Of a stretch of DNA of 64,000 nucleotides, positions 2,600 through 22,842 are shown piece after piece; the stretch's first letter is position 1, and each line of letters starts with the position of its first letter. The stretch spans positions 1 to 64,000 of the forward strand of contig NZ_LQQO01000008.1 in assembly GCF_001619955.1 (NCBI RefSeq), in the 5' to 3' direction. This DNA comes from Sphingomonas hankookensis (GTDB lineage Bacteria; Pseudomonadota; Alphaproteobacteria; Sphingomonadales; Sphingomonadaceae). The position numbers and the translations under genes were made by a program. Below the pieces are notes generated by a model. That model was not told the DNA's origin, made no database searches, and worked only from the letters and a program-made list of their open reading frames with translations.

Positions 2600-4197
2600 G
2601 GCTCCGGCCGGTCGTCCGGCAGGCGATCAAAAGCGGCCCCGTCCCAAAGCTGCGCGACTGGCGGAGCCTGCCGACGTCGAAGCTCACCCGCGCCGAACGC
2701 AACATGAAGTTCTGCGAACGGTATCTCCGGGTGCCGGAGGGCGACTTGGTCGGACAACCGATCAAGCTCGCCGACTTTCAGGAAGCATTCTTCTACGCGG
2801 TCTACGACAACAAGGTGATGACGAAGCGCGCTATCCTGTCGATGGCGCGCAAGAACTCCAAGACTGGCACGATTGCGATGATCGTGCTGGTTCACCTTGT
2901 CGGACCGGAGGCGAAGCAGAACAGCCGCATCGCATCGGGTGCGCGGAGCCGGAAGCAGGCAGCGGAGGTCTACAACTACGCGTCGAAGATGGCGGCGCTG
3001 TCGCCCGATCTGCGCAACCGGGTCCGGCCGGTGCCGTCGGCAAAGAAGCTGGTCGGGCTGGCGATGAACGTCGAGTACGACGCGGTTTCCGCCGAAGGTT
3101 CGACCGCGCACGGCGGCTCGTACATCGTCGTCGTGCTGGACGAGGTCGGGCAGGTGAAGGGGCCGCAAGACGACTTCGTCGACGCGATGGTCACGTCGCA
3201 GGGCGCGTATTCCGACGGCCTGCTGTTCGTCATTTCGACGCAGGCACCGACCGACGCGGACATGATGTCGATCCTGCTCGATGACGCGGAGCGGGCCGGC
3301 GACATGGCGACGATCTGCCATCTGTACGCAGCCGCCCCGGATTGCGATCTACTGGACCCGAAGGCGCTGGCGGCGGCGAACCCCGCCCTGGGGCTGTTCC
3401 GGTCAAAGTCCGATGCCGAAGAACAGTTGCAGCAGGCCGCGCGGATGCCGTCGAAGGAAGCGACGGCGCGGGTGCTGATCCTGAACCAGCGGCAGAACAT
3501 GGTCGCAGCGCTGGTTGCGGCGTCCGTCTGGAAGCGCGGCAACGTCGAGCCGGCACCGTGGGACCATTCGGCGATTTACGGCGGTCTCGACCTTTCGGCG
3601 ACGACCGACCTTACCTCGCTGGTGCTGACGCAGCGACAGGGCGGCGTATTGATGGTCCGGGCGTGGTTCTGGATGCCCGAAGCGAACATCGCCATCGCAT
3701 CGAAGCGGGACCGGACGCCCTATGACGTGTGGGTCAAGAAGGGGCTGATTCGGACCACGCCCGGCAACGTGATCGACTATGCGTTCGTCGCGCGGGACGT
3801 GGGCGAGATTTGCGGCGACCTGCCGGTGCCGGTCAAACGGCTCGCGTTCGACCGCTGGCGGATGGATCGGCTCAAGGTCGAACTGGCGAAGATCGGCGTG
3901 GAGTTGCCGCTTGAGCCCTTCGGGCAGGGCTTCGTTTCCATGTCGCCTGCGATCGACGCTATCGAGGAAGACCTGCTGAAAGGCCAGGTTCACCACGGCG
4001 GCAATCCGCCGCTTGCGATGTGCGCGGCGAACGCGGTGGCGGTGCCGGACCCGGCCGGCAACCGGAAATTGGACAAGTCGAAATCGACCGGTCGCATTGA
4101 CGGCATGGTCGCGCTGACAATGGCAAGAGGGGTTGAGGCGATGTTCACTGACCCCGAAGTCAATGTCGACGACTGGATCGCGAGTATGCGCGGATGA
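2596..4197 (+). CDS. Terminase large subunit (ATPase/nuclease)
   Basis: A 533-residue packaging motor. The ATPase domain has a Walker A-like SMARKNSKTGT (residues 82-92) and a Walker B VVVLDEVGQ (178-186, acidic D182/E183). The C-terminal RNase H-like nuclease domain starts around YGGLDLSATTD (D332), with later acidic positions near the AFDRWRMD motif. This is the HK97/lambda-like TerL type that cuts concatemeric DNA and translocates it through the portal. The start is GTG at 2596, sharing bases with the terS stop, so translation is probably coupled. The stop overlaps the portal start by four bases. Confidence 0.95.
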   Translation: MRLRPVVRQAIKSGPVPKLRDWRSLPTSKLTRAERNMKFCERYLRVPEGDLVGQPIKLADFQEAFFYAVYDNKVMTKRAILSMARKNSKTGTIAMIVLVHLVGPEAKQNSRIASGARSRKQAAEVYNYASKMAALSPDLRNRVRPVPSAKKLVGLAMNVEYDAVSAEGSTAHGGSYIVVVLDEVGQVKGPQDDFVDAMVTSQGAYSDGLLFVISTQAPTDADMMSILLDDAERAGDMATICHLYAAAPDCDLLDPKALAAANPALGLFRSKSDAEEQLQQAARMPSKEATARVLILNQRQNMVAALVAASVWKRGNVEPAPWDHSAIYGGLDLSATTDLTSLVLTQRQGGVLMVRAWFWMPEANIAIASKRDRTPYDVWVKKGLIRTTPGNVIDYAFVARDVGEICGDLPVPVKRLAFDRWRMDRLKVELAKIGVELPLEPFGQGFVSMSPAIDAIEEDLLKGQVHHGGNPPLAMCAANAVAVPDPAGNRKLDKSKSTGRIDGMVALTMARGVEAMFTDPEVNVDDWIASMRG

Positions 4198-5483
4198 GGG
4201 GGTATCAGCTATCCCCGCGCGCCGCAGCGCTGGAACGCCAATGGGAAGCATCCCGGCTCGACCGCAAGGACATCGAAGGGCTCGACGAGTTCACGTCGGG
4301 CGTCAGCCGGTTCGATCGCGACAACCTCGTCACCAACCGTGTGACGACCGAGGCTTTCGAGGACGCACGGTTCCTGAACCGCAGTTCGGCGCTGGGGCTG
4401 TCGGCGACCTGGGCGTGCGTCAGCTTTTGGGCGGGCAACACCGCATCGCTGCCGCTTTACGTGCAGCGCCCCGGCCCCGGCGGCGTGGCGGTCAACGATT
4501 ACGAACACCCGCTGCACGAACTGTTGCACGACAGCCCGAATTACGACCAGTCGGCGTTCGACTTCTGGGAGTTCATGGCCGCTTCGATCGAACTGCATGG
4601 CAACGCCTATGCGGAAATGATCTTCGGCACGAACGGCCGGCTGGTCGCGCTTGAGCCTATCCTATGCCCGGACCGGGTGCAGGTGCGCCGCCTGCGCAAC
4701 CGCGACCTCGAATACCGCTGGACTGCCGACAACCGATCGCGCGTCGAAACGCAGCAGCGGGTGCTGCATATCCGGGGTTTCGGCGGGAACGCGCTGGGCG
4801 GGGTGTCACCTCTCGCCGTCTGCCGAGGCACATTTAGCGGCGCCGTATCGGTCGACCGCGCTGCGGCAGCGATGTTCGTCAACGGCGTTCAGTCGTCGGG
4901 TGTGCTGAGTACGGATAACGTGCTGAACGCGACGCAGCGCAAAGAACTTGAAGACCTGTTGATCGAGAAGTTCATGGGCGCCCGCAATGCCGGTCGCCCC
5001 ATGCTGCTCGACAACAAGCTGACATGGCAGCAGTTGAGCATCAATCCGGTAGACGCGGAGATGCTCGAAAGCCGCCGCTTCTCGGTTGAGGACATCTGCC
5101 GCGTGTTCGAGGTCGATCCGCATCTTGTCGGTCAGACGGTCGGCAACACCACGCTCGGCAGCAGCATTACCGAACAGACCAACAGCGTCATGAAGTTCAA
5201 GATGCGCAAGCGGTTGAAGCGGATCGAAGGCGCGCTGGGCAAGCAGTTGCTGTCCCGCGCCGATCGCCGCGCCGGAATCGCGATCCGGTTCAACGTCGAG
5301 GCCTTCCTGCGCGCCGATAGCGGCGGCCGGGCCGATTACTACCAGAAGATGCAGCCGTTCATGACGGTGAACGAGGTCCGCGCGCTCGAAGGGCTCCCCC
5401 CAGTCCCCGGCGGCGATGTGATCTACCGTCAGATGCAGGACGTGGCGCTCGGCGAGCAGCCCCCTTCCCCGGAGAAACAGTAA
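4194..5483 (+). CDS. Phage portal protein, HK97 family
   Basis: A 429-residue portal subunit. The family is recognised by the N-terminal segment ALGLSATWACVSFWAGNTASLPL, the ring-forming central region, the EDICRVFEVDPHLVG segment and the Gly/Asn/Thr-rich turn that follows near residue 320. Portals form a dodecamer at one capsid vertex, dock terminase, and connect the head to the tail. Length is normal for the family. It begins with a four-base ATGA overlap with terL, and its stop overlaps the protease start. The tail end is Pro-rich and divergent, as usual. Confidence 0.93.
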   Translation: MRGYQLSPRAAALERQWEASRLDRKDIEGLDEFTSGVSRFDRDNLVTNRVTTEAFEDARFLNRSSALGLSATWACVSFWAGNTASLPLYVQRPGPGGVAVNDYEHPLHELLHDSPNYDQSAFDFWEFMAASIELHGNAYAEMIFGTNGRLVALEPILCPDRVQVRRLRNRDLEYRWTADNRSRVETQQRVLHIRGFGGNALGGVSPLAVCRGTFSGAVSVDRAAAAMFVNGVQSSGVLSTDNVLNATQRKELEDLLIEKFMGARNAGRPMLLDNKLTWQQLSINPVDAEMLESRRFSVEDICRVFEVDPHLVGQTVGNTTLGSSITEQTNSVMKFKMRKRLKRIEGALGKQLLSRADRRAGIAIRFNVEAFLRADSGGRADYYQKMQPFMTVNEVRALEGLPPVPGGDVIYRQMQDVALGEQPPSPEKQ

Positions 5484-7657: not shown

Positions 7658-9316
7658 ATGGCACGCAAACCCGGCAGCCGCCCTCGCGGCTTCGTCACCG
7701 TGAATCCCAGCAAGGCGATCATTCCGGTTGGTCCCCCTGTCGGCCCCTACCCCGGCGCTGGCGGCACCCCGCTGTCGATCAGCGGCACCCCTGTCGCAGG
7801 CACGGTTGGCGCGGGCGGCACTTTCCTGCCGATTATCAGCGGCGGCACTGCGCCGTACACGCTATCGATCGCAAGCGGCACCCTTCCGCCCGGCCGCTCG
7901 ATCAGCGGACTGACCGTGACCGGATCGTACACGACCGCTGGCACCTATCCGTACACCCTGCGCGCGACCGACAGTAAGGGCGTGACGGCCGACCTCGCCG
8001 TAACGGTCGTCGTCGCCCCCGGTGCGGCTGCCAGCGTCACCGCGATCGGCACCGGTGGCCGAATGGCTACGAACGTGCAGCAGGTCTCCGCGACCAAGCT
8101 GCGCCTGCGCTCGCGCTCGCTGACCCGTGCCGCCGGTTCGCCCTACCAGACGTTCGCCTTTCCGCTTTGGTATATCGACGACGCTGGCGTGACGCAGGTC
8201 GTGCGCCTGCCGGACGGCCTGACCGCCAAGTGTCAGTTCGATGTTTATACCAGTGGCACGATCTCGAACGCGGCTGGCGACCGAACCGCTCCGGGCACGG
8301 TGAACGGGGCGTCGACCTTCACGGTAGCAAACGGAGCCACCGCCGCGGCGACCGGCGGGGCTATCCCCTACCTGTTCTGCCGCCTTGACCTGAGCGGTAT
8401 TCCGTTGGGCGCCGCTGTGCTGGCGATGCTGGAAATGGACGCGCTGGCAACTGGATGGTTCATGACCATGACGGACGCCACCAGCACCAGCACGTCGGGC
8501 GAGAACATCTATTACGGCGGCACGACCAGCATCGGCACCTTCGGGGCCATGGGGGCGAACGGTGGCTCCGCGCAGACACGCGCTCTTCGGCCGCTGGTCA
8601 TCATCGGCGAACCTACCAGCGGTGGGCTGGAACCTGCCGTTGCCCTGGGCGACAGCAACACGCTCGGCGCCCGCGGCCCCGGCCGCCCCGGGCAGGACGG
8701 CAGCAGCGCGCAGAGCGGCATGGCCGCGTTCGGTCTGTTTCAAGCGACCCAGCCCTACTCCGTGTTTGGCAAGAACGGTGATCGCGCATCGTGGTGGAAC
8801 AACGCCCCTGCCAACGATCTCCGCTTCCAAGCGCTGGCATGGTTCAAGAACGGGCGCGCGCTCATCAACTTCGGCACCAACGACCTCGGCGATGTAGCAA
8901 GCGCATCGGACACAACCGTCAGCACCGCGCTTATCGCGAACGTCCGCTCGCTGCGGGGCAAGGTCAAGACGGCAATGGGCGGCACGGCACGCATCGGTCA
9001 GGCCTTCATCCTGCCGCGCGTAAACGAGCAGGATGGGTTCCTCACCGCCGCCGCGCAGGGTGTCCGCACCGGCTACGCGAACACCGACGCAGCCCGGCCG
9101 GCCTATGATGCGGCGATCACTGCCGATGTCGGCGCCGCTGGAATGGCGCTGGACTTCACTTTCAATCCGCGTGCGCTGGTCAACGACCCAGCGGCAACCG
9201 ATAAGTGGAAGACGGACGGTGCCACCTCGCACTACCTTGAGGCGGACGGTACGCACGTCAACCAGTTGGGCGCGCAGACGGCATCGATCGCCTATCGCGA
9301 TGCGGTGTCGGCGTGA
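7658..9316 (+). CDS. SGNH/GDSL-type hydrolase with N-terminal Ig-like domain
   Basis: A 552-residue protein. Residues about 35-118 form a putative Ig domain (GTAPYTLSIASGTLPPG, then TTAGTYPYTLRATDS), a common surface or carbohydrate-binding module. A middle region (120-320) is uncharacterised. Residues 325-550 carry the SGNH hydrolase blocks: GDSN (S333), the Gly of GKNGD (G374), GTND (N408) and D-x-x-H in ADGTHVN (D530, H533). Such enzymes remove acyl groups, typically acetyl, from polysaccharides or lipids. No signal peptide is seen, so it is probably part of the virion. Its location between capsid and connector genes is unusual. Specificity is unknown. Confidence 0.85.
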   Translation: MARKPGSRPRGFVTVNPSKAIIPVGPPVGPYPGAGGTPLSISGTPVAGTVGAGGTFLPIISGGTAPYTLSIASGTLPPGRSISGLTVTGSYTTAGTYPYTLRATDSKGVTADLAVTVVVAPGAAASVTAIGTGGRMATNVQQVSATKLRLRSRSLTRAAGSPYQTFAFPLWYIDDAGVTQVVRLPDGLTAKCQFDVYTSGTISNAAGDRTAPGTVNGASTFTVANGATAAATGGAIPYLFCRLDLSGIPLGAAVLAMLEMDALATGWFMTMTDATSTSTSGENIYYGGTTSIGTFGAMGANGGSAQTRALRPLVIIGEPTSGGLEPAVALGDSNTLGARGPGRPGQDGSSAQSGMAAFGLFQATQPYSVFGKNGDRASWWNNAPANDLRFQALAWFKNGRALINFGTNDLGDVASASDTTVSTALIANVRSLRGKVKTAMGGTARIGQAFILPRVNEQDGFLTAAAQGVRTGYANTDAARPAYDAAITADVGAAGMALDFTFNPRALVNDPAATDKWKTDGATSHYLEADGTHVNQLGAQTASIAYRDAVSA

Positions 9317-10146
9317 TCGCCCTTCTCCTAGCCGCCCAAGCCGTGTTCCTGACGCCCGGTCAGACATGGCCCGCGCCAGTCCCGCCGACGATCGCGGCCC
9401 CCGGTGTGAATGGTGCGGCGCGGTTGCGTGTCGACGCTCCCGACGTGACGATCGGCCCGGTTGTGGTGCAGGACGCCTACCGTGCGGTCGAGACGGACGC
9501 GGGCGTCGATACCCCGCGCATTCGCATCCGCGGGCTGAAAGCGACGGGGCTGACCCGTGACGGCATCCGCCTGCGCGCCGCGCCCGGCGCGCTGATCGAG
9601 GACTTCGATCTGACCCATGCCGATGCGCCGTCGACCGGTGAGCATCTGCCGCAGGGCATCGCGATCACCGCCGGGACCGGCATTACGATCCGCAACGGCC
9701 GGGTCGCACGCTTCCGTATGCCGGTCGAACCGGGGAAGTACACAAACGGCGACGGCATTGCGACCGAAGGCGGGACCAGCGGCACGATCGCGAACACGCT
9801 GGCCGAGGACAACAGCGACGGCGGGTTCGACATCAAGGGCACATGGACGCTCGACCGCACCATCGCCCGCCGGAATGGCCGCGACTATCGGTTCTGGAAC
9901 ACCGTCACCGCCGGCACGATCACCGCGGAGGGATGGACCAGCGCTGCCGTGTGGATCGGCAAAGGCGCGCGGGTGCGGATCGATCATCTGATCGCCAGCA
10001 ACGACAATGCCGCGCCGCTGCTGATCGTCGCGGGCAGCACCGATGTCGTCATCACCCGCTGCACCCTGTCGCGCCCTACCGGTGCGCCTCTGGTGAAGTC
10101 GGAAGGGTCGGGGAATCGCGTCGTGCTCGGGGCCGGGTGCAAATGA
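9313..10146 (+). CDS. Right-handed beta-helix protein (pectate-lyase-like)
   Basis: A 277-residue protein starting at GTG 9313 with a four-base overlap with the hydrolase gene. It has the repeating pattern of parallel beta-helix coils: IRIRGLKATGLTRDGIRLR, ITIRNGRVARF, GTIANTLAEDNSDGGFDIKG, VVITRCTLSRP. The first 15 residues are hydrophobic (IALLLAAQAVFL) and could be a signal-like segment or the buried cap of the helix. This fold occurs in polysaccharide lyases/hydrolases and in inert virion surface proteins. No catalytic residues can be assigned. Coupling to the SGNH gene suggests the two act on the same surface glycan, which is inference. Confidence 0.75.
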   Translation: MIALLLAAQAVFLTPGQTWPAPVPPTIAAPGVNGAARLRVDAPDVTIGPVVVQDAYRAVETDAGVDTPRIRIRGLKATGLTRDGIRLRAAPGALIEDFDLTHADAPSTGEHLPQGIAITAGTGITIRNGRVARFRMPVEPGKYTNGDGIATEGGTSGTIANTLAEDNSDGGFDIKGTWTLDRTIARRNGRDYRFWNTVTAGTITAEGWTSAAVWIGKGARVRIDHLIASNDNAAPLLIVAGSTDVVITRCTLSRPTGAPLVKSEGSGNRVVLGAGCK

Positions 10147-13485: not shown

Positions 13486-15834
13486 ATGGCTGGAAGCGAA
13501 GTCGTCCTCGGCTATCTGAAGTACGTCTTAGGTTTCGATAGCGTCGCGTTCGAGAAGGGCGCAGGTGAGGCTGAGAAGCGCTTGAAGGCGACGGAGCGGC
13601 ACTTCAAGGCCGTTGGCGACCGCATGCAGAGCATCGGCGGCAAGCTGTCGGCGGGCATCACGGCGCCGGTTCTCGCCATCGGTACTGCGTTCGCAGCATC
13701 CGCCCGCGAGATGGCGGCGTCGGCTCCTGAATTGCAGGCGATGGCGCAACTCGCCAACACGTCCACCAGCCAGTTTCAGCGTCTGGCCTACGCAGCAAAA
13801 TCCGTTGGCGTTGAAAGCGACAAGCTGTCCGACATCTACAAGGACGTGAACGACAAAGTAGGCGACTTCATGGCCACCGGCGGTGGCGAGATGAAGGACT
13901 TCTTCGAGAAAATCGCCCCTAAAGTTGGCGTCACCGCTGCACAATTTAAGCGTCTATCTGGTCCAGACGCATTGCAACTATACGTGAGCAGCTTGGAGAA
14001 GGCCGGCGTAAGCCAAGCTGAAATGACGTTCTACATGGAGGCAATCGCGGACGACGCGACCCGCCTTCTTCCTTTGCTTCGCGACAATGGCAAGGCAATG
14101 GGCGACCTCGGCAAGAATGCTGCCGTTATATCGCCCGAGCAGTTAGAAAACATGAAGCGGTACACTGCCGCTCAGCAGCAGATGCAGGAATCTTTCCGTG
14201 CGCTGACAATCGCCGTCGTCGATAGTGGCTTGCTCGAAACCCTAACCAATCTTGCGACTAAGGTCGCAGAATGGACGAAGTGGGTCGCAAAGGCCCACCC
14301 GGAAGCATTTAAGTTGGCTGCGGCCATCGGTGGCGTATCCGCAGCAGTCGGGCCGGTAGTGTTCGGCGTCGGCAGCATGGTGAAAATGTTCTCGCCGCTA
14401 TTGGCCCGTTTGGCCCCTCTAATCGGGACAGCGGGCGCGGCAGCAACCGGGGCAGGCGGCACCGGTCTGGTCGGCATTGCCGGGGCACTTGGCCCCATTG
14501 CTATCGGCGCGATTGCGGTGGTGGCGGCTTACAAGAACTGGGACAAGATCGGGCCCTGGATCGACAATGTCGCCACGCGCATGCAGGACTGGGCGACCAA
14601 GACCGACGCCAATATCAAGCAGTTTACTGACGGCGTGAACGCGATGGACCGCCGTCTTGGCATTCCCTCGCAGCCCGAGTTTCTCGACAGCATTGAGCGG
14701 AACTTCACGGAGTCGGTCGCACGGATCGATGCGTGGCTGCTGGGGGTTCAGAAATGGGCGGCGGACTTTGATGCCGCATTCGTACGGATGGCGTCCAGCG
14801 CGGTCACATCCATGCAGCGGCTGTATACCGGTGTGAAGACGTGGCTCGGCGACAAGCTGAACGCGATCTGGGCCAGCGCGGCCGAGAAGATCCAGTGGAT
14901 CAACGACAAGTTCTTCGGTCTCTACGATGCGGTTGTCGGTCACAGCTATATTCCGGACATGGTCGACGAGATCGGGCAGCACATGCGCCGGCTCGATCAG
15001 GAGATGGTGGCGCCGGCGACCGGAGCGATCAGCAAGACCGATCAGGCTTTCCGCGCGCTGGCGGCGAGCCTCTCGCCAATCCTAGATCGGCTATATCCGG
15101 CCGAAGCACGTGAGAACCGATTGGCCGCGGATATCGAGACGGTCAACGCCGCTGTGAAGGCCGGCATCCTGCCTGCTCAGCAAGCGGCCGAGGCGATCAA
15201 GCGTCTGCGTGACGAGTATGCGCGCGAGCTAGGCGGCAAGCCTACCGCCGCTGACGTGATCGGAGAGCCGAACGACGAAGACCTGGGGTTGCCGGACGTT
15301 GGCGACATCGAAATCAAGGTCGGGGATATCGAAGAGGTGCTCGGCGGACTGGGCAAAGCCAACGACGATGCAGCCGCCTCGTTCGAAGACATGGCTCGTC
15401 GTGCGATGTACTCGCTGCAAAGTCTCGTCGGCGCCATCAAGGGCGGTGACTTCGTCGATATCCTGTCCTCGATCGCCGATGCGTTCTTCTCACTCGGCGG
15501 GGCAGGCCTGTTCGGCAAGTCCAACGGCAAGACCTTCGACTTTGGGGGTTTCCGTGCGGAAGGCGGGCCGGTGGGTGCGGGTCGGACGTACATGGTCGGC
15601 GAGCGGGGGCCAGAGTTGTTCACGGCGACCCGGTCGGGGTACATTCACCCTAACCCCAGCAATGACAACGGATCGGCGCAGTTCATGCGCGTGGCCATCG
15701 ATGTGAACGAGGGCCCGATGTTCCGTGCCACGATCCGCGACGAGGCGAACACGCAGGCGACCGCCGTCTCGATCGACAGCAAGCGGCGCGACATGAAGTC
15801 CTATCGCAACACCATGGGCCGGGGAACGCGATGA
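13486..15834 (+). CDS. Tail tape measure protein
   Basis: A 782-residue, mostly helical protein. The N-terminus (VAFEKGAGEAEKRLKATERHFKAVGDRMQSIGGKLSAGITAPV) is the classic tape-measure start; residues 260-350 hold Ala/Gly-rich membrane-like segments (LAAAIGGVSAAVGPVVFGVGSM and GIAGALGPIAIGAIAVV) expected for a protein that enters the host membrane. The C-terminus has GLFG and GGFRAEGGPVGAGRTYMVGE-GPELF, common in lambda-type tape measures. An AGGAGG site lies before ATG 13486. By the usual ratio of about 0.15 nm per residue the tail would be near 115-120 nm, an estimate only. The stretch 13,790-14,340 is less GC-rich than the rest. Confidence 0.93.
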   Translation: MAGSEVVLGYLKYVLGFDSVAFEKGAGEAEKRLKATERHFKAVGDRMQSIGGKLSAGITAPVLAIGTAFAASAREMAASAPELQAMAQLANTSTSQFQRLAYAAKSVGVESDKLSDIYKDVNDKVGDFMATGGGEMKDFFEKIAPKVGVTAAQFKRLSGPDALQLYVSSLEKAGVSQAEMTFYMEAIADDATRLLPLLRDNGKAMGDLGKNAAVISPEQLENMKRYTAAQQQMQESFRALTIAVVDSGLLETLTNLATKVAEWTKWVAKAHPEAFKLAAAIGGVSAAVGPVVFGVGSMVKMFSPLLARLAPLIGTAGAAATGAGGTGLVGIAGALGPIAIGAIAVVAAYKNWDKIGPWIDNVATRMQDWATKTDANIKQFTDGVNAMDRRLGIPSQPEFLDSIERNFTESVARIDAWLLGVQKWAADFDAAFVRMASSAVTSMQRLYTGVKTWLGDKLNAIWASAAEKIQWINDKFFGLYDAVVGHSYIPDMVDEIGQHMRRLDQEMVAPATGAISKTDQAFRALAASLSPILDRLYPAEARENRLAADIETVNAAVKAGILPAQQAAEAIKRLRDEYARELGGKPTAADVIGEPNDEDLGLPDVGDIEIKVGDIEEVLGGLGKANDDAAASFEDMARRAMYSLQSLVGAIKGGDFVDILSSIADAFFSLGGAGLFGKSNGKTFDFGGFRAEGGPVGAGRTYMVGERGPELFTATRSGYIHPNPSNDNGSAQFMRVAIDVNEGPMFRATIRDEANTQATAVSIDSKRRDMKSYRNTMGRGTR

Positions 15835-16421
15835 TCGACCTGACCGGCATCCGCATCGCCGGCGCGACGCCCCGCCTCCTGCAATGGGGCTCGGAACTGA
15901 CCCCAACGCTGGGCGGTGTGACGCAGCGACTTGACCGCCTCGGCAGCCGCCACGCAATTGACGTTCAGATGCCGCCCATGCGGGTGGAGGCGGATGGCCG
16001 ACGCTGGATCGCCCGGCTGCTGCTGGCAAAGCAGGAGGGCGGACGCATCGCCTTTCCGCAGGTCGATTTCGAGCCGGGGCCGTGTGGGCGTCCGACCGTC
16101 AGCGCGGCGACGGCATCGGGGCGCTTGATCCCGATCACGGGTGCTACCGCCTATTACACCGTGCGCGAGGGGCAATGGCTGTCCGTCACTCATGCCGGCC
16201 GGTCGTACCTCTACTGCGCCACGGCACAGGTCGTGCTGGACGGCAGCGGGGCGGGATCGGTGCCGGTCGACGTGCTGTTGCGCTCGCCGCTGTCGATTGG
16301 TGATGCGGTCGAACTGTCGAAGCCGGTCATCGAAGGCTGGCTGTCGGGTGACGGCTACGAATGGACGCTGGAGCGCAGCCGCACGGTGGGGCTGGGCTTT
16401 ACGATTGTGGAGAGGGCATGA
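15831..16421 (+). CDS. Minor tail protein, probable distal tail component
   Basis: A 196-residue beta-rich protein starting in an ATGA overlap with the tape measure gene. Residues include MPPMRVEADGRRWIARLLLAKQEGGRIAFPQVDF and the Gly-rich RPTVSAATASGRLIPITGA. Position right after the tape measure and before two more small genes and the J-like protein corresponds to the distal tail/tip slot of lambda-like phages. The sequence does not match a family I can name with certainty. Confidence 0.65.
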   Translation: MIDLTGIRIAGATPRLLQWGSELTPTLGGVTQRLDRLGSRHAIDVQMPPMRVEADGRRWIARLLLAKQEGGRIAFPQVDFEPGPCGRPTVSAATASGRLIPITGATAYYTVREGQWLSVTHAGRSYLYCATAQVVLDGSGAGSVPVDVLLRSPLSIGDAVELSKPVIEGWLSGDGYEWTLERSRTVGLGFTIVERA

Positions 16422-17023
16422 CCGCTCTGCACCCCGCGCTCGATGCCGCGCTGGCTGGCGATCGCGCGCTGATCTTCGCTGCGCTGCGGGTGGACTTCGA
16501 CGGCGATCCCGCTCTGCTACTGGACGGGTCGGGTACAGCGACCTTCATGGTCGACGGCGCGCCCGCAATATTCATCGGCGCGCACCCGGTCTGGGGTACT
16601 TGGGACGGGATCGACGACTATTCGGACGGTGCGGGCGATGAGGCTCCTAGCTTCAGCTTCTCGCTGCTGCCGCCGGCCGATGCCGATCCGGAGATGGTCG
16701 CGACCGACGACATGCAGGGCGTGCGGGTCCGTTTCTGGATAGGCGCGATCGATACCGACAGCGGCATCGTGATCGGCGAACCGCTGCTGCTGTTCGACGG
16801 TGAAATCGACGTGCCGACGCTGGTCATCCCGCAGGCGTCGCTGCGCGTCGATTTCGACTGTGTCGGCGGGATGGAGCGGTTCTTCGAGAATGAGGAAGGC
16901 GTGCGCCTGGCACCCGCTTTCCACAAGCGCGTCTGGCCCGGCGAGCTGGGCCTCGACTTCATCACTGGCGTTCCCGATCCGGTCTATTGGGGCCAGTCGA
17001 CACCAAGCGGGGTGCGCATATGA
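16418..17023 (+). CDS. Minor tail protein (tip complex)
   Basis: A 201-residue protein beginning MTALHPALDAALAGDRALIFAALRVDFDG at ATG 16418, overlapping the previous stop. It contains HPVWGTWDGIDDY and SFSFSLLPPADADPEMVA, then LLFDGEIDVPTLVIPQASLRVDFDCVGG, a beta-sandwich-like stretch seen in small tip proteins of alphaproteobacterial siphophages. It lies in the slot of lambda L/HK97 tip-completion genes. No catalytic motif. Function by position. Confidence 0.62.
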   Translation: MTALHPALDAALAGDRALIFAALRVDFDGDPALLLDGSGTATFMVDGAPAIFIGAHPVWGTWDGIDDYSDGAGDEAPSFSFSLLPPADADPEMVATDDMQGVRVRFWIGAIDTDSGIVIGEPLLLFDGEIDVPTLVIPQASLRVDFDCVGGMERFFENEEGVRLAPAFHKRVWPGELGLDFITGVPDPVYWGQSTPSGVRI

Positions 17024-17433
17024 AGATGCACCAGCGCCGCGATGTGACGCAGGCTACGATGGATCACTTCACGCCGAAGCCCTTTGACTGGTGCAAGGCC
17101 GCGACGTGCGTTCACATGGTACGCCGGCATGTCGCTGCGATGGGTCATTCGGTGCCGCCCATGCCGCGCTTCCGGTCGGCCCTTAGCGCCAAGGCCGCGC
17201 TGACCGAGCGGGGCTGGAGCAATCTGGCCGACATGATGGACGCGACCTTGCCCCGGATCATGCCGGCGCAGGTCATCATGGGCGATGTGGTCGAATTGCA
17301 GAGCGAAAGCGACGTTTTCGGCGCGCTGTGCATCGCACTCGGTGACGGCCGTGTAATGGGTTATTCCGAGGGAAACGATGGGCTTAGCGTAATGCAGCCC
17401 TTCGCCTCTCCAATCGCTGCGTGGAGAGCCTGA
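17020..17433 (+). CDS. NlpC/P60-related tail protein, DUF6950-like
   Basis: A 137-residue protein at the place where lambda-like phages encode K, an NlpC/P60 peptidase of the tail tip. FDWCKAATCVHMVRRHVAAMGH resembles the catalytic-Cys segment of this family, and PAQVIMGDVVEL resembles the G-D-V/L strand. The remaining parts (FGALCIALGDGRVMGYSEGNDGLSVM) match DUF6950-type proteins rather than active NlpC/P60, and the catalytic His cannot be placed. It may be an inactive structural relative. ATG 17020 overlaps the previous stop. Confidence 0.6.
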   Translation: MKMHQRRDVTQATMDHFTPKPFDWCKAATCVHMVRRHVAAMGHSVPPMPRFRSALSAKAALTERGWSNLADMMDATLPRIMPAQVIMGDVVELQSESDVFGALCIALGDGRVMGYSEGNDGLSVMQPFASPIAAWRA

Positions 17434-19721
17434 TGCGCGTGGCGAAGATCGCAGCCGTCGTCATCGCCGTGGCTGCGGCCATTCCTTCGGGTGGCACATC
17501 GCTGCTGGCGGCGGGCGTGGCAGCGGCGGGGGTGGCATCGGGCGCGGCTGCGGTGGCTGTGGCAAGCGCCATTGCGATCGGGTCGAATCTGGCGGTCGGG
17601 CTGCTGTCGCCACGTACCGGCGGCACGGGTGGCGGCACACAGACGGACTGGTCTGCCGATCCGCGCGCACCGATCCCGATCCGCTTCGGCCGCACTGGTG
17701 GCGCGGGGAACATCGTTTATCGCAAGGGCAGCGGCGAGGCGGACAAGAACCAGTACCAGACGCTGACGACTGTCTTAAGCGGTGCTGGCCCGATCGACGC
17801 GATCGAGGCGAGCTATGCCGACAAGAAACCGCTGACCTTTACGGGTGCGGCAGCCAACGCCCCTTTCTCTGGCTGGCTGTGGGAGGTGCGCCAGCTTGGC
17901 CTGTGCCCTGAACCGGCGGCACTGAATACCGGTGTCGGCAATAAGCCAGGCTGGACCGCCGATCACAAGCTATCCAGCCTCGCGGCGGTGCAGACGACCC
18001 TTCGCTATGACAGCAAGGGCAAGGGCACCTTCATGACCGAGCCGGGGATGCTCTGGGTCACGCGAGGCGTTCGCTGCTACGATCCGCGACTGGATAGCAC
18101 GTACCCTGGCGGTAGCGGCCCGCAACGATGGTTCGATCAGACGACTTGGGCGTTCAGCAAGAACCCTTATGTCGTCGGTCTGACTTGGGCGATCGGGTGG
18201 AAGGCGAACGGCGTCCGTGTGGCTGGCGTCGGCATTCATATCCGCAATATCGAGGTCTCGCGGTTCGTCGAAGGCGCGAACGTCGCCGATTTCAACGGGT
18301 GGACGTGCGGCGGCGAAGTCTCGACTGGCGACGACAAGTGGCAGGTGCTGAAATCGATCCTGCAAGCCGGCGGCGGCGAACCGATCAAGGATGGGGCGAC
18401 CCTGTCGTGCATGGTCAACGCCCCGCGCGTGCCAATCGCGACGATCGGGCGCGATGACATCGTCGGGGAGATCAGCGCGCCGAAGACACAGCCGCGCCGG
18501 GATAGGGTCAATGGCATCATCCCGACCTATCGCAGCGAGGCGCATTTCTGGGAGGTCGTGCCGGGCGAGGTTGTCCGTGACGCCGCGATGCTCGCCAAGG
18601 ATGGCGATGAGCGGACGAAGGAAATCGCCTACGGGCTGGTGCAGGTCGAAGGTAGCGACGACGTGCAGCAGACGGTCGAGCTTGCAGGCTATGACCTGGA
18701 GAATGCTCGCGAGGCTGGGCCGATCACGATGCCGCTGAAGCTGCGCTGGATCGGATTTCGCGCCGGTGACTGCGTGACGATCGACGCGGACGAGACAGGC
18801 CTGTCGGGCAAGCAGATGATCCTGCTGAAGCGCTCGCTTGACCCTGCAACGGGGATGGTGCCGATGACCATGAGGACGGAGGACCCGACGAAGCATGGTC
18901 GCGTGTTCGCCCGGACTGGTACGCTGCCGCCGGTGCCGTACGTCGATCGGCCGGACGTGCCGGGTGACTATTCTCTACCGCCTTCGAACCGCGCCGCCCA
19001 TTTGATCGTGCGGCAGTCGGTCGCGTATCCGGTCGACAGCGACGACACGACGATCACGATTGAGACGTTCGAAGCGACGATCGATGATGGCCGGGTGCTG
19101 ACGTTCCCAGCGCAGACGATCACCGGCCTGACTGCTGCTTCGGTCTATCTGGTGCTCTGGGATCTGGACAACTCGACGTTCGTCGCGGTGCCGGCGCCGG
19201 CGCTCAATGAGGTGGCATCGGATCGCTACGTCATCATTCGCGAGACGACCACGTCGAACGCCGATGGGACGTATCCGACCTACCCCACGGCTCCGGGCGG
19301 CGACAATGGCGGTGGCTATGGTGGCGGTGGATGCCCGATCGTGACCGCGCGCATTCTGCTGGCGAATACCGATCGCACCGGACCCGGCGACACGATCGAA
19401 GCGGGCAAGATAGAAGCCGGCATGTGGGTCTGGTCGCAGCGGGAAGCAGACCTGGGCACCGGCAAGTGGGGCGCGTATCTGGTCACCTTCACGCGGGTGT
19501 TCGACAGCCCGCTTTATGCTGTCGACGATCGCCCGCTCACCTCGCCGTCGCATCTGTGGTGGGATAATGGCTGGTCGCGGTCGGACGTGATCGGCAAGCC
19601 GGCCGGTAGCGGGCGTGTCGTGGCGCTGACGGTTGCCGATGCCGCGACCTACGTGCTGGTCGACGGTGCAGGACGTCGTCTCATCAGCCACAACAAGCAG
19701 GCGGAGGCGAACCAGGTATGA
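17433..19721 (+). CDS. Tail tip (J-like) protein with C-terminal Hint-like domain
   Basis: A 762-residue tail tip protein. An Ala/Gly-rich hydrophobic N-terminus (residues 5-60) leads into DPRAPIPIRFGRTGGAGNIVY, as in J-like central tail proteins that bind the host. The middle (200-520) is the phage tail-protein region. A Gly-rich linker (GGGYGGGG) at about 625-633 precedes a segment with Hint features: Cys634 at its first position (CPIVTARIL), IEAGKIEAGMWVWSQ, block-B-like TSPSH (T703, H707) followed by LWWDNGWS, and a terminal LISHN (H753, N754). Only eight residues follow. This suggests self-cleavage after assembly, an inference. ATG 17433 shares a base with the previous stop. Confidence 0.85.
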   Translation: MRVAKIAAVVIAVAAAIPSGGTSLLAAGVAAAGVASGAAAVAVASAIAIGSNLAVGLLSPRTGGTGGGTQTDWSADPRAPIPIRFGRTGGAGNIVYRKGSGEADKNQYQTLTTVLSGAGPIDAIEASYADKKPLTFTGAAANAPFSGWLWEVRQLGLCPEPAALNTGVGNKPGWTADHKLSSLAAVQTTLRYDSKGKGTFMTEPGMLWVTRGVRCYDPRLDSTYPGGSGPQRWFDQTTWAFSKNPYVVGLTWAIGWKANGVRVAGVGIHIRNIEVSRFVEGANVADFNGWTCGGEVSTGDDKWQVLKSILQAGGGEPIKDGATLSCMVNAPRVPIATIGRDDIVGEISAPKTQPRRDRVNGIIPTYRSEAHFWEVVPGEVVRDAAMLAKDGDERTKEIAYGLVQVEGSDDVQQTVELAGYDLENAREAGPITMPLKLRWIGFRAGDCVTIDADETGLSGKQMILLKRSLDPATGMVPMTMRTEDPTKHGRVFARTGTLPPVPYVDRPDVPGDYSLPPSNRAAHLIVRQSVAYPVDSDDTTITIETFEATIDDGRVLTFPAQTITGLTAASVYLVLWDLDNSTFVAVPAPALNEVASDRYVIIRETTTSNADGTYPTYPTAPGGDNGGGYGGGGCPIVTARILLANTDRTGPGDTIEAGKIEAGMWVWSQREADLGTGKWGAYLVTFTRVFDSPLYAVDDRPLTSPSHLWWDNGWSRSDVIGKPAGSGRVVALTVADAATYVLVDGAGRRLISHNKQAEANQV

Positions 19722-20247: not shown

Positions 20248-21920
20248 TGGCCGGACCCTTCCGCTTCGACGGCGCACGCGTCATCAAGATCGACGGCGCT
20301 GACACCCTTGCTCCTCTCGTTGCCCGTGCGCGCCGCGCGGAAAGCGGGGCTGTCGCAGCAGCCACGCTGGCGAGCGGGGAGGCCGATCGGGCCGATCTGG
20401 CTGCGTCGGGCGCCGTTGCGGCGTCCAATCTGTTCCCAACGGTCGCTGCCGGCCTCGCCGCGACCGCGGAAGGCGGGTTCTTCACGGTCGTCGGTGACGG
20501 GGCGTCGACCTACGCCATCCTGTATCGCGAGGTATCTGGCGCTGCGATCGAGCAGGCGCGCTATGCCAGCAAGGCGGCGTATGAAGGGCCGGGCGGGGCG
20601 GGGCTGATTGGGTATCGGGGTCGTACCGTTCAACAGAAGTTGGACGACACCATCTCGGTGCGGGACGGGCGATTCGCTGGGGGCGCAAAAGGCGACGCTG
20701 TCACCGACGATACCGAGGCTTTGGCAGCTGCTTTCGCTTTCGCTATGCAGACGGGCGCTAGGGTCTACTTCCCGCGCGGAATCTATCAGACCAATCCGAT
20801 TACACTCGACGTGCCATCCGGTTTGCCTTTGCACATTTTTGGCGATGGCAAGGATATTTCGGTGATCCGTAAGCGCGCGAACAGTGATGAGCCTGCGTTG
20901 ACCATCACAACAGACGAGGTGGACAATTATACGGTGCTAGAGGATTTGCGCATCGATAACGGTTTTCGTGACACGGTCGGTGTAGGCATCCGCTTCGTCA
21001 ATACCGCCCGGATGTCGTTGAACCGAGTGAATGTGCGCGGGTTTGGTCTAGGGCTCGATAATGTCGGCGGCCTGATTTGGCTGGCTAACGATGTCACGCT
21101 GCGCGGTAACGCTAGGGGCTTCCGTACGCGCGCAAGCGATGCCAGTATATATTCGAACTTGATCAAATTCACTGGTGGTGAAATTCGCGGTAGCGCACTC
21201 GCCGTTGATATCGACCAAGCAAATGGCGTGGTGTTCGACACCGTGGACTTCGAGTCCAACGGTACGCCGGCTGATTGGACAAGCGGTGTTGTGAAGCTTG
21301 GCGCCGCCATGGCGCAGGAAGTCGGCGATGCTATCGTTACCTTCAACAATTGCTGGTTTGAAGGCAACAAAGGAACGGCCGTCTTTGGGTCTGCTGCTAA
21401 TACAGAAATTGCTATGAATGGATGTGTCTTTCTCGCGAACGAACGCTCCGTCAATATAACCGGGCTAGCGAGTGTGTTGCTTATGGGTGTGCGGGCGCCA
21501 GAACAGAACGTCATGTTCCGTATTCAAGCGGCGCGCAGCGTGATCGTCGGCGGCTCTATTGGTAGTATTGAGGACACCTCGACGCATCGGGCATACGATA
21601 CGGTAACGGCGACCGGCGACTTCACTGGCACCAGGACTAGTTTCCGTCTCAGTCATTCGGTGTCGGTGCCAACCGCGAACGATTGTATCTTCGCGCGCGA
21701 CGTTGACCTGCTCCCGGGCGGCGACACCGACGCGTCTAGCATCTATAAATACGGGACGAAGCCGTTCTCAATTCGCTTCGCCGGCGGTCCGATGATTTCA
21801 GCATCCGATGGAAAGCTTGGGTTCAGCGGGAAAGCGCCCATTCCCGTTGCGTTTCTTCACCCGGCCGCGTCTGTGGCAGACGTTGTCGCTCATCTGAAGG
21901 CTCTTGGTCTCGCTGGATGA
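20247..21920 (+). CDS. Tail spike with pectate-lyase-like beta-helix
   Basis: A 557-residue protein. The N-terminal 110 residues are Ala-rich and helical (virion-binding part). GAKGDAVTDDTEAL (146-159) and GARVYFPRGIYQTN are the signature start of the phage Pectate_lyase_3 beta-helix, followed by repeated N-x-x-V coils to about residue 500. A short C-terminal segment (FSGKAPIPVAFLHPAASVADVVAHLKALGLAG-type) is the small trimer tip common in alphaproteobacterial tail spikes. It likely binds or degrades a capsule or O-polysaccharide. The central coding sequence is less GC-rich than the structural operon, fitting exchange of the receptor-specific part. Its 3' end overlaps the antisense glycosyltransferase by 98 bases. 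Confidence 0.85.
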   Translation: MAGPFRFDGARVIKIDGADTLAPLVARARRAESGAVAAATLASGEADRADLAASGAVAASNLFPTVAAGLAATAEGGFFTVVGDGASTYAILYREVSGAAIEQARYASKAAYEGPGGAGLIGYRGRTVQQKLDDTISVRDGRFAGGAKGDAVTDDTEALAAAFAFAMQTGARVYFPRGIYQTNPITLDVPSGLPLHIFGDGKDISVIRKRANSDEPALTITTDEVDNYTVLEDLRIDNGFRDTVGVGIRFVNTARMSLNRVNVRGFGLGLDNVGGLIWLANDVTLRGNARGFRTRASDASIYSNLIKFTGGEIRGSALAVDIDQANGVVFDTVDFESNGTPADWTSGVVKLGAAMAQEVGDAIVTFNNCWFEGNKGTAVFGSAANTEIAMNGCVFLANERSVNITGLASVLLMGVRAPEQNVMFRIQAARSVIVGGSIGSIEDTSTHRAYDTVTATGDFTGTRTSFRLSHSVSVPTANDCIFARDVDLLPGGDTDASSIYKYGTKPFSIRFAGGPMISASDGKLGFSGKAPIPVAFLHPAASVADVVAHLKALGLAG

Positions 21921-22842
21921 CGCGCCAGAATGCGTAGGCGGCGTCGTCCCAATCTTTTGGCAACGCCGCCAGTTGTGTCGACCAATCAGGTGTCCAGCCA
22001 TCATCAAGGCGACTTTTCAGATGGCGCAATGCCACCACAAGAGCTTCCGGACAAAGCGGATCGAAATAGATGCCCGCTGCACCGCATAGCTCGCGGGCGT
22101 AGGGGCGGTCGGCTGCTACAATCGGCATGCCGATAGTCATCGCCTCTACGAGCGGCAAACCGTAGCTTTCTGTAAACGATGGAAAAACCAACGCATCTGC
22201 CGCCGAGTACATCGCCGCGACATCTCCAGAAGGTCGCTCGCCATCGAGCGTTGTTGCGATGTCTTCGACAAGGCCATGCGATCCCGCCAGTTGCATAGCA
22301 GAAGTGAGAATTGCGTGGTTTTTGTGCGGATAAGGCGCAGCTGGGTAGCAGAGGCGTAGCTTTCCGCCTCGCCATTCTCGGCGCGTCGTGCCGTCGACGC
22401 ATGCGGTCGGTTGCCGAGCTATCGATATCTTCCCGCGGGTCGTAGGGTAATGCTCTTCGATGGCTGCCCGCATGTGTTCGGTCTGCACGATTAAAGCATC
22501 GGCGAACCTGATATTGCGCTTGAAAAGGTAGCGGGAGACAAGGTTCTTGATCTGCTGGGGGCGGCTTGGCGTTTCCGAATTTGGGATGAGATGCGCGTTC
22601 TGCACGAACACGACCTGCTTACCAGAATAGCGTAGAGGGATATCCCCCAACACCAGTAGGGTGCCTGTGCGGGCGTCCTGTCTAAGACAGGATAGGAGCC
22701 GAAGAAGCGGACGGGGAATGGCCGAATGTTGAGTTCGCGTGATCTCGATATCACCGGCGATCCGCTGCAATGCTGGTAGCAGATGTTCTGCTAATCGCCG
22801 TGCGCCGAGGCCGAGCACGTTAGAAGCATCCACCTGAAGCAT
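21823..22842 (-). CDS. Glycosyltransferase, GT4-like (probable lysogenic conversion gene)
   Basis: A 339-residue GT-B glycosyltransferase on the opposite strand to the phage genes. The acceptor half begins MLQVDASNVLGLGARRL; the donor half has YPHKNH (171-176) and ADALVFPSFTESYGLPLVEAMTIGMPIVA-type sequence with the E-x-x-x-x-x-x-x-E motif E225-E233, typical of GT4 enzymes using a nucleotide-sugar donor. It is less GC-rich than its surroundings. Its C-terminal tail overlaps the end of the tail spike gene. In temperate phages such genes alter O-antigen or capsule and block superinfection; that role is inferred. Confidence 0.85.
   Translation of the reverse strand: MLQVDASNVLGLGARRLAEHLLPALQRIAGDIEITRTQHSAIPRPLLRLLSCLRQDARTGTLLVLGDIPLRYSGKQVVFVQNAHLIPNSETPSRPQQIKNLVSRYLFKRNIRFADALIVQTEHMRAAIEEHYPTTRGKISIARQPTACVDGTTRREWRGGKLRLCYPAAPYPHKNHAILTSAMQLAGSHGLVEDIATTLDGERPSGDVAAMYSAADALVFPSFTESYGLPLVEAMTIGMPIVAADRPYARELCGAAGIYFDPLCPEALVVALRHLKSRLDDGWTPDWSTQLAALPKDWDDAAYAFWRVIQRDQEPSDERQRLPQTRPGEETQREWALSR

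Follow-up and report, generated by a model that had tools for sequence, protein, structure and literature searches.

The window analysed here is the stretch of 64,000 nucleotides at positions 1 to 64,000 of contig NZ_LQQO01000008.1 (forward strand) of Sphingomonas hankookensis (assembly GCF_001619955.1), and our subject is an intein-like domain at the end of one of its prophage proteins. Judged from gene position and PHROG matches, the product of the open reading frame (ORF) at 17433-19721 is the J-like tail-tip protein of a prophage. The gene follows those for the tape measure and distal tail proteins, residues 11-486 of its product match PHROG 5616 (tail fiber), and PHROG 31 (central tail fiber J) is matched as well (Table 1). 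Genes for a terminase, a portal, a head protease, a tail terminator and an amidase lie around the tail genes. The assignment of residues 634-754 to the Hint (intein/Hedgehog) domains is well supported by profile comparison and structure prediction.

The initial annotation, made from the letters of the sequence, had proposed a Hint fold from Cys634, a T703-S-P-S-H707 motif, LWWDNGW from residue 708, H753-N754 and the eight residues that follow, all of which are present in the ORF. Single-sequence scans of the tail-tip protein gave no Pfam or NCBIfam match at E ≤ 1, and phmmer with the single sequence gave no match in the PDB. Besides the phage record of the window itself, a scan of viral contigs returned four relatives with 70-91% identity over the domain. 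Two remoter relatives from the same bacterial family (32 and 36% identity) match Pfam models, one of them Hint_2 (7.1e-05) and the other Intein_splicing (0.0016), both below the curated cut-offs. A wider scan for Hint relatives yielded 34 loci, and 28 relatives from it were aligned with the window sequence. The profile of these 29 sequences matched 18 PDB sequences at E ≤ 1 (best E 9.9e-06), each an intein or intein-like chain by its molecule name or entry title; the bacterial intein-like (BIL) domain BIL2 of BUBL was matched at E 4.6e-04. In a scan of the 29 members, one to six each matched Intein_splicing, PT-HINT, Vint, Hom_end_hint or Hint_2. The AlphaFold model of the domain, built from the alignment, had a mean predicted local distance difference test score (pLDDT) of 92.5 and a predicted template modeling score (pTM) of 0.85. 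Foldseek ranked BUBL1 BIL2 and DnaB inteins at the top, and VIA-align, in which rows within 1 Z are ties, gave Z scores of 15.3 for a Ssp DnaB mini-intein variant, 14.8 for Tetrahymena BUBL1 BIL2, 13.8 for a Clostridium thermocellum BIL and 12.5 for Hedgehog (1at0). A non-Hint predicted fold had been named beforehand as one of the results that would speak against the proposal; the fold recovered by AlphaFold and fold search is that of a Hint domain. A second AlphaFold model of residues 500-762 (pLDDT 74.4, pTM 0.52) was used for the domain borders alone. Profile, fold and conservation argue against a chance occurrence of the motifs, and a toxin-type Hint domain was rejected because just eight residues lie beyond the domain.

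Table 1. Features of the tail-tip gene and of the tail genes upstream of it (positions in the window).
Feature	Position	Strand	Basis
J-like tail-tip protein, 762 aa	17433..19721, stop included	+	ATG ORF; PHROG 5616 E 5.6e-74, PHROG 31 E 2.1e-15
J-like core, residues 73-495, common to Hint-free homologues	17649..18917	+	tblastn to phages; search of 396 genomes
Beta-strand domain ahead of linker, residues about 523-606	18999..19250	+	AlphaFold model of residues 500-762; conserved module
Gly-rich linker, residues 621-633, N-extein side	19293..19331	+	Sequence; pLDDT <50 at residues 618-632
Hint domain, Cys634 to Asn754, 121 aa	19332..19694	+	Alignment, PDB profile matches, AlphaFold, fold comparison
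Cys634, predicted N-S acyl shift nucleophile	19332..19334	+	Starting Cys in 62/62 distinct Hint rows
Block-B motif S704-P-S-H707	19542..19553	+	[T/S]xxH in 59/59 rows; His column invariant
His753-Asn754, predicted Asn cyclisation site	19689..19694	+	HN in 60/62 rows
C-peptide KQAEANQV, residues 755-762, C-extein	19695..19718	+	Sequence; compared with Hint-free tails
Upstream tail gene, DUF6950 (PF22262)	16987..17433	+	E 1.5e-19
Tail protein, PHROG 2048	16361..17023	+	E 4.2e-17
Distal tail protein, PHROG 1302	15831..16421	+	E 5.9e-19
Tape measure protein, PHROG 2854	13486..15834	+	E 2.1e-74

The residues on which the proposal of a Hint domain had leaned, C634, H707 and N754, are kept in homologues. 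In the four viral relatives nearest to the window protein, its own phage record set aside, the Cys, TSPSH, LWWDxGW and HN are all present, the Asn of LWWDNGW being the sole varying residue of that motif. The 29-sequence alignment is invariant at Cys1, the block-B His and the final Ser-His-Asn, and also at one Glu, one Gly, one Trp and one Thr column. Across loci, 110 ORFs at E 1e-10 were reduced to 62 distinct Hint rows. The two rows counted without a final HN are L041, which ends at a contig border, and L037, which was mis-located by the script and yet has the true Cys and HN. Removal of L041, L044 (a copy of L070) and L033 (a near-copy of L031) left a set of 59 rows, in all of which [T/S]xxH was found in the expected stretch. 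The annotated block-B motif and its His707 were borne out by this alignment; Thr703 was not, as the block-B Thr/Ser position is occupied by S704. The residue ahead of Cys1 is Tyr in 18 of the 59 rows, Gly in 13, Arg and Phe in seven each, and others in the remainder; it is Gly in the window and its near relatives, and GGG occurs inside the 20 residues preceding Cys1 in 52 rows. For the Hint domain, the ratio of nonsynonymous to synonymous substitution rates (dN/dS) lay between 0.07 and 0.27 in eight pairs, the C-peptide being included in three of them, which shows that the domain is under purifying selection.

C-peptides were tabulated for 57 entries, leaving out L037 and L038; in the latter the Hint domain is internal to a longer ORF, and its His-Asn is followed by 142 residues. 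Their length is 4-14 residues, most commonly eight. At the first position after the Asn (+1) stands I, K, Y, L, V, A, M or F; the C, S or T of a canonical class 1 intein occurs there in 0/57. All 57 have Lys at +1 or +2, which corresponds to residues 755-756 (19695-19700) in the window. A Lys after the Asn is also found in some other bacterial Hint proteins (HNWK, HNSK, HNRK).

Comparison with Hint-free homologues bears on the placement of the domain. The J-like core was found at E 1e-10 in 38 of the 396 genomes of the order, and three of the 30 returned J-core loci, the window's own included, carry the Hint domain. Fourteen of the 27 Hint-free J loci are complete, and seven of these have GGG in their last 20 residues with the stop a few residues on. 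A search with the domain ahead of the linker returned 20 rows, which represent eight distinct genes with and seven without Hint. Two of the seven end in GYGGGG-RYQQQVAQ and GSGGGG-RYQQNVQLQ, the counterpart in the window being GYGGGG-[Hint]-KQAEANQV, and two further ones have GGGG and 8-10 residues at their end. In the PHROG 376 family, 83 ORF rows comprise 20 split genes with Hint (18 distinct), 62 split genes without it and one single ORF, although the query was itself a split gene and the counts are not a survey of PHROG 376 at large. Three of the 62 Hint-free rows end at a contig border, and one of the three, L140, shows a Hint start. Among the 59 complete Hint-free N-halves there are 48 distinct ends, and GGG lies in the last 20 residues of 37 of these; for comparison, of the 428 other plus-frame ORFs with 200 or more residues at the same loci, which are mechanical ORFs unchecked as genes, 7 have it there. 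Hint-free ends of the same build exist, although the sequence following the domain is not long enough to establish that the site is identical. Because many Hint-free homologues end in a Gly-rich stretch and about eight residues, we conclude from the sequences that the Hint domain appears to sit between two parts that are joined in many, not all, homologues, as an intein does. The domain, which the initial annotation placed at the very end of the protein, thus appears to be more than a simple C-terminal appendage.

In 82 of the 83 rows (e.g. L035, L040, L042, L066 and L067) two ORFs make up the PHROG 376 tail gene, which in BPP-1 is a single ORF (Bbp13). The split N-half ends in FCCH-like, Pro-rich and Gly-rich parts and is followed by a separate C-half. 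Frameshift fusion with the downstream ORF was ruled out, since Hint-free split loci of the same build exist and since an ATG in the downstream frame overlaps the stop codon in five of five Hint-bearing loci checked.

The domain recurs in dozens of phage loci and in at least four tail-protein families. Hosts of the 59 rows are PHROG 376 (22), J-like proteins (20), tips like those of gene transfer agents (GTA-like; 12), a lambda gpI-like protein (1; PHROG 32 E 1.8e-54) and another type (1), with three unassigned, so that 55 of the 59 have hosts labelled as tail-protein families. The GTA-like label rests on similarity to L017, where Phage-tail_3 and Rcc01698_C domains are present. Seven labels were assigned by hand (L030 and L073 to PHROG 376; L016, L052, L015, L029 and L037 to J-like proteins), that of L029 being the weakest. 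A self-processing type of tail tip had been thought unusual; a Hint domain is present here, and it is not unique to this protein. The occurrence of related domains at comparable positions in several unrelated phage tail proteins suggests that tails may edit their own ends. In L097, a phage contig of 75 kb, the domain occurs in two genes of the tail module (4104-5426 and 7901-10054): that of the lambda gpI-like protein, and an ORF of 717 residues that follows a long ORF located where J would be, with an overlap at the end of the latter. Named bacterial carriers are Sphingomonas or Sphingomonadaceae in five of five cases. The Hint domains of L031-L033 (one contig of 200 kb) lie in a 570-residue protein outside the assigned types.

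The tree of the 59 rows (its bootstrap not settled) has 14 host-label changes where five are the minimum, which makes repeated transfer of the domain between types of tail gene probable. The C-terminal part is also far more similar than the remainder in L003 (73% identity over residues 507-762, 41% over the first 500 residues) and in L005 (70% over residues 520-762, 39% over the first 500). Such movement between tail genes would be expected of a selfish cassette, a mobile mini-intein-like element whose harmless excision at a tolerant, variable, Gly-rich end brings the phage no benefit. Its patchy distribution (matches in 6 of the 396 genomes of the order, one with in-frame stops) and the close homologues both with and without the domain agree with this, and BIL domains are placed in variable protein regions according to passages of PMC7765530 and PMC5874633. 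On the other hand, 121 residues would be too few for a homing endonuclease, 55 of the 59 labelled hosts are tail-protein families, and the domain occurs twice in the tail module of L097. Taken together, we regard a purely selfish element as possible, if rather unlikely. Several matches were not carried further: that in genome G495 had in-frame stops, that in G263 (L012) appeared to be a chance frame, and a class-wide search (10 of 385 genomes besides the window, 12 loci) gave Hint domains that were of another build by eye, two of the 12 loci giving no clear frame.

The account that we favor, and hold to be reasonably probable, is that residues 634-754 form a catalytically competent domain of intein-like type, which excises itself from the tail tip once the protein has been translated. 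On our best reading it is nearest in kind to the A-type BIL domains, as judged from residue pattern and fold and not from an aligned reference BIL set, and the scheme below is drawn because of this analogy, with the A-type BIL mechanism described in passages of PMC4031507, PMC7765530 and PMC7664689 as the model. The chemistry, timing and use of the self-excision are inferred. An assembly timer or maturation switch, as suggested in the initial annotation, would be one possible use. Assisted by His707, Cys634 would attack the Gly633-Cys634 bond and form a thioester, and cyclisation of Asn754, assisted by His753, would release the eight-residue C-peptide. The thioester would then be hydrolysed, or the amino group of Lys755 would attack it and the C-peptide would be rejoined. 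The mature tail tip would end in a flexible Gly-rich stretch, either bare or bearing the C-peptide, like many Hint-free homologues. Passages of PMC4031507 state that cleavage products dominate where the +1 nucleophile is lacking and that the freed amino group can religate by attacking the thioester; A-type BILs do not ligate according to the relevant passage of PMC7765530.

The domain shares with A-type BILs the Hint fold, Cys1, the terminal His-Asn, the absence of Cys, Ser or Thr after the Asn, and placement in a variable region. It differs in its hosts, which in the passages cited are non-conserved bacterial proteins and the FhaB adhesin and here are phage tail proteins, and in that Gly-ended homologues without the domain exist. 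Mini-inteins (Ssp/Npu DnaB) are among the best fold matches and, like our domain, lie between two parts that are joined in some homologues, whereas here the +1 nucleophile is absent, the C-terminal site is variable and the C-extein is as short as described above. The Hedgehog autoprocessing domain has the same fold and, by analogy, the same Cys1 thioester chemistry, whereas here the terminal Asn is kept, eight residues follow it and there is no sterol-recognition region. BIL2 of Tetrahymena BUBL (6y75, 6tmm) is alike in fold and profile, and belongs to a ciliate protein in contrast to a phage tail protein. For ciliate BUBL proteins, transfer of the thioester and cross-linking have been proposed.

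A comparable use can be imagined for the tail tip, in which the Gly-rich C-terminus would be moved from Cys634 to an amine on another virion protein or on the host surface and the tip would be cross-linked. That BUBL1 BIL2 is the nearest fold within ties, that Gly precedes Cys1 in the window and its near relatives, that the +1 nucleophile is absent and that the domain of one relative is fused to a protein like lambda gpI, whose family has a ubiquitin-like domain (passage of PMC1779556), would all suit such a donor. Gly, however, precedes Cys1 in a minority of rows and is outnumbered by Tyr, and the terminal Asn and C-peptide are kept although transfer alone would not need them; we accord this donor role little credence. 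A broader proposal can be framed in which tail-maturation chemistry is shared, several phage lineages placing an intein-like domain behind the Gly-rich ends of J-like tips, GTA-like tips, split PHROG 376 proteins and lambda gpI-like proteins, and using the thioester during assembly to trim, splice or covalently join, so that the tip is self-edited and perhaps cross-linked. We offer it as a speculation that is more probably wrong than right by a good measure.

Several observations weigh against self-excision as set out above. A GGG-bearing end is found in only 7 of the 14 complete Hint-free J homologues; among the seven Hint-free genes found with the pre-linker domain, two (from one genome) end in a Gly-rich stretch that lacks GGG, and in another the Gly run is followed by about 20 residues. 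In the sub-clade of the window copy, which stands on a long branch (1.26), the block-B Thr is replaced by Ser (SPSH in 8 of 59 rows), and the window has Ala738 ahead of Thr-Tyr in block F, where His is found in 40 of 50 parsed sequences. We take the block-F His to have a role in Hint chemistry, and the two deviations could slow or uncouple a step; because of them, full activity appears less sure for the window copy than for the family as a whole. The C-peptide, finally, is weakly constrained, which argues against religation being essential and suggests that rejoining is not vital, while the persistence of the Asn and C-peptide suggests that the C-terminal step matters. Its dN/dS of 0.69 to 4.67 was undefined in one of five pairs and comes from 7-8 codons, too short a stretch to carry weight. 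The first residues after HN (KRA, KLA) are alike in some J-type and PHROG 376-type carriers, and because of this likeness they may travel with the domain, both flanks being short and of low complexity.

The departures in blocks B and F would also fit a domain that has lost its autocatalysis and is retained for its fold, serving to cap the structure, to aid trimerisation or to contact a receptor. Cys1, the block-B His and His-Asn, for which a purely structural role has no need, are kept across a diverse family, and the low dN/dS speaks against a dead domain too, so we think this improbable.

In the cited passages, Hint elements of phages have been described in the terminase and ribonucleotide reductase of phiCbK (PMC3556154), the terminase of Rak2-like phages (PMC5259590), a helicase (PMC6132909), and a minor head protein (PMC7468147). 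None of those passages concerns tail proteins. A further Hint domain is reported from an insertion in a staphylophage protein whose type the passage leaves unstated (PMC5526547), and the survey portion of PMC7468147 lists 0 inteins among 36 tail fibre, collar or protein entries. The viral structure library already has phage proteins named Hint. A search of titles and abstract openings in the open literature, which left the original BIL papers outside its scope, gave no Hint domain in a tail protein among the matches listed. What appears to be new is an A-type-BIL-like element in a recurrent setting, the tail proteins, with homologues that end as if the domain were absent.

Between the tail and lysis genes of the window, on the opposite strand, lies a glycosyltransferase-like gene (21823-22842, minus strand; PHROG 2170 E 1.2e-10), possibly a lysogenic conversion gene. 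The same genome encodes a second J-like protein on another contig (G000:C16:74517-75818, minus strand; open frame of 1489 residues), and a Hint search of the genome gave no match there.

A natural thioester-forming domain behind a Gly-rich end and lacking a +1 nucleophile could be useful as a ligation tool. Proteins known to edit themselves include enzymes, Hedgehog proteins and bacterial adhesins. If the account given here is true, its recurrence on structural tail proteins would give self-editing a new location and possibly a new use, and since matching ends exist both with the domain and without it, its benefit to the phage is testable.

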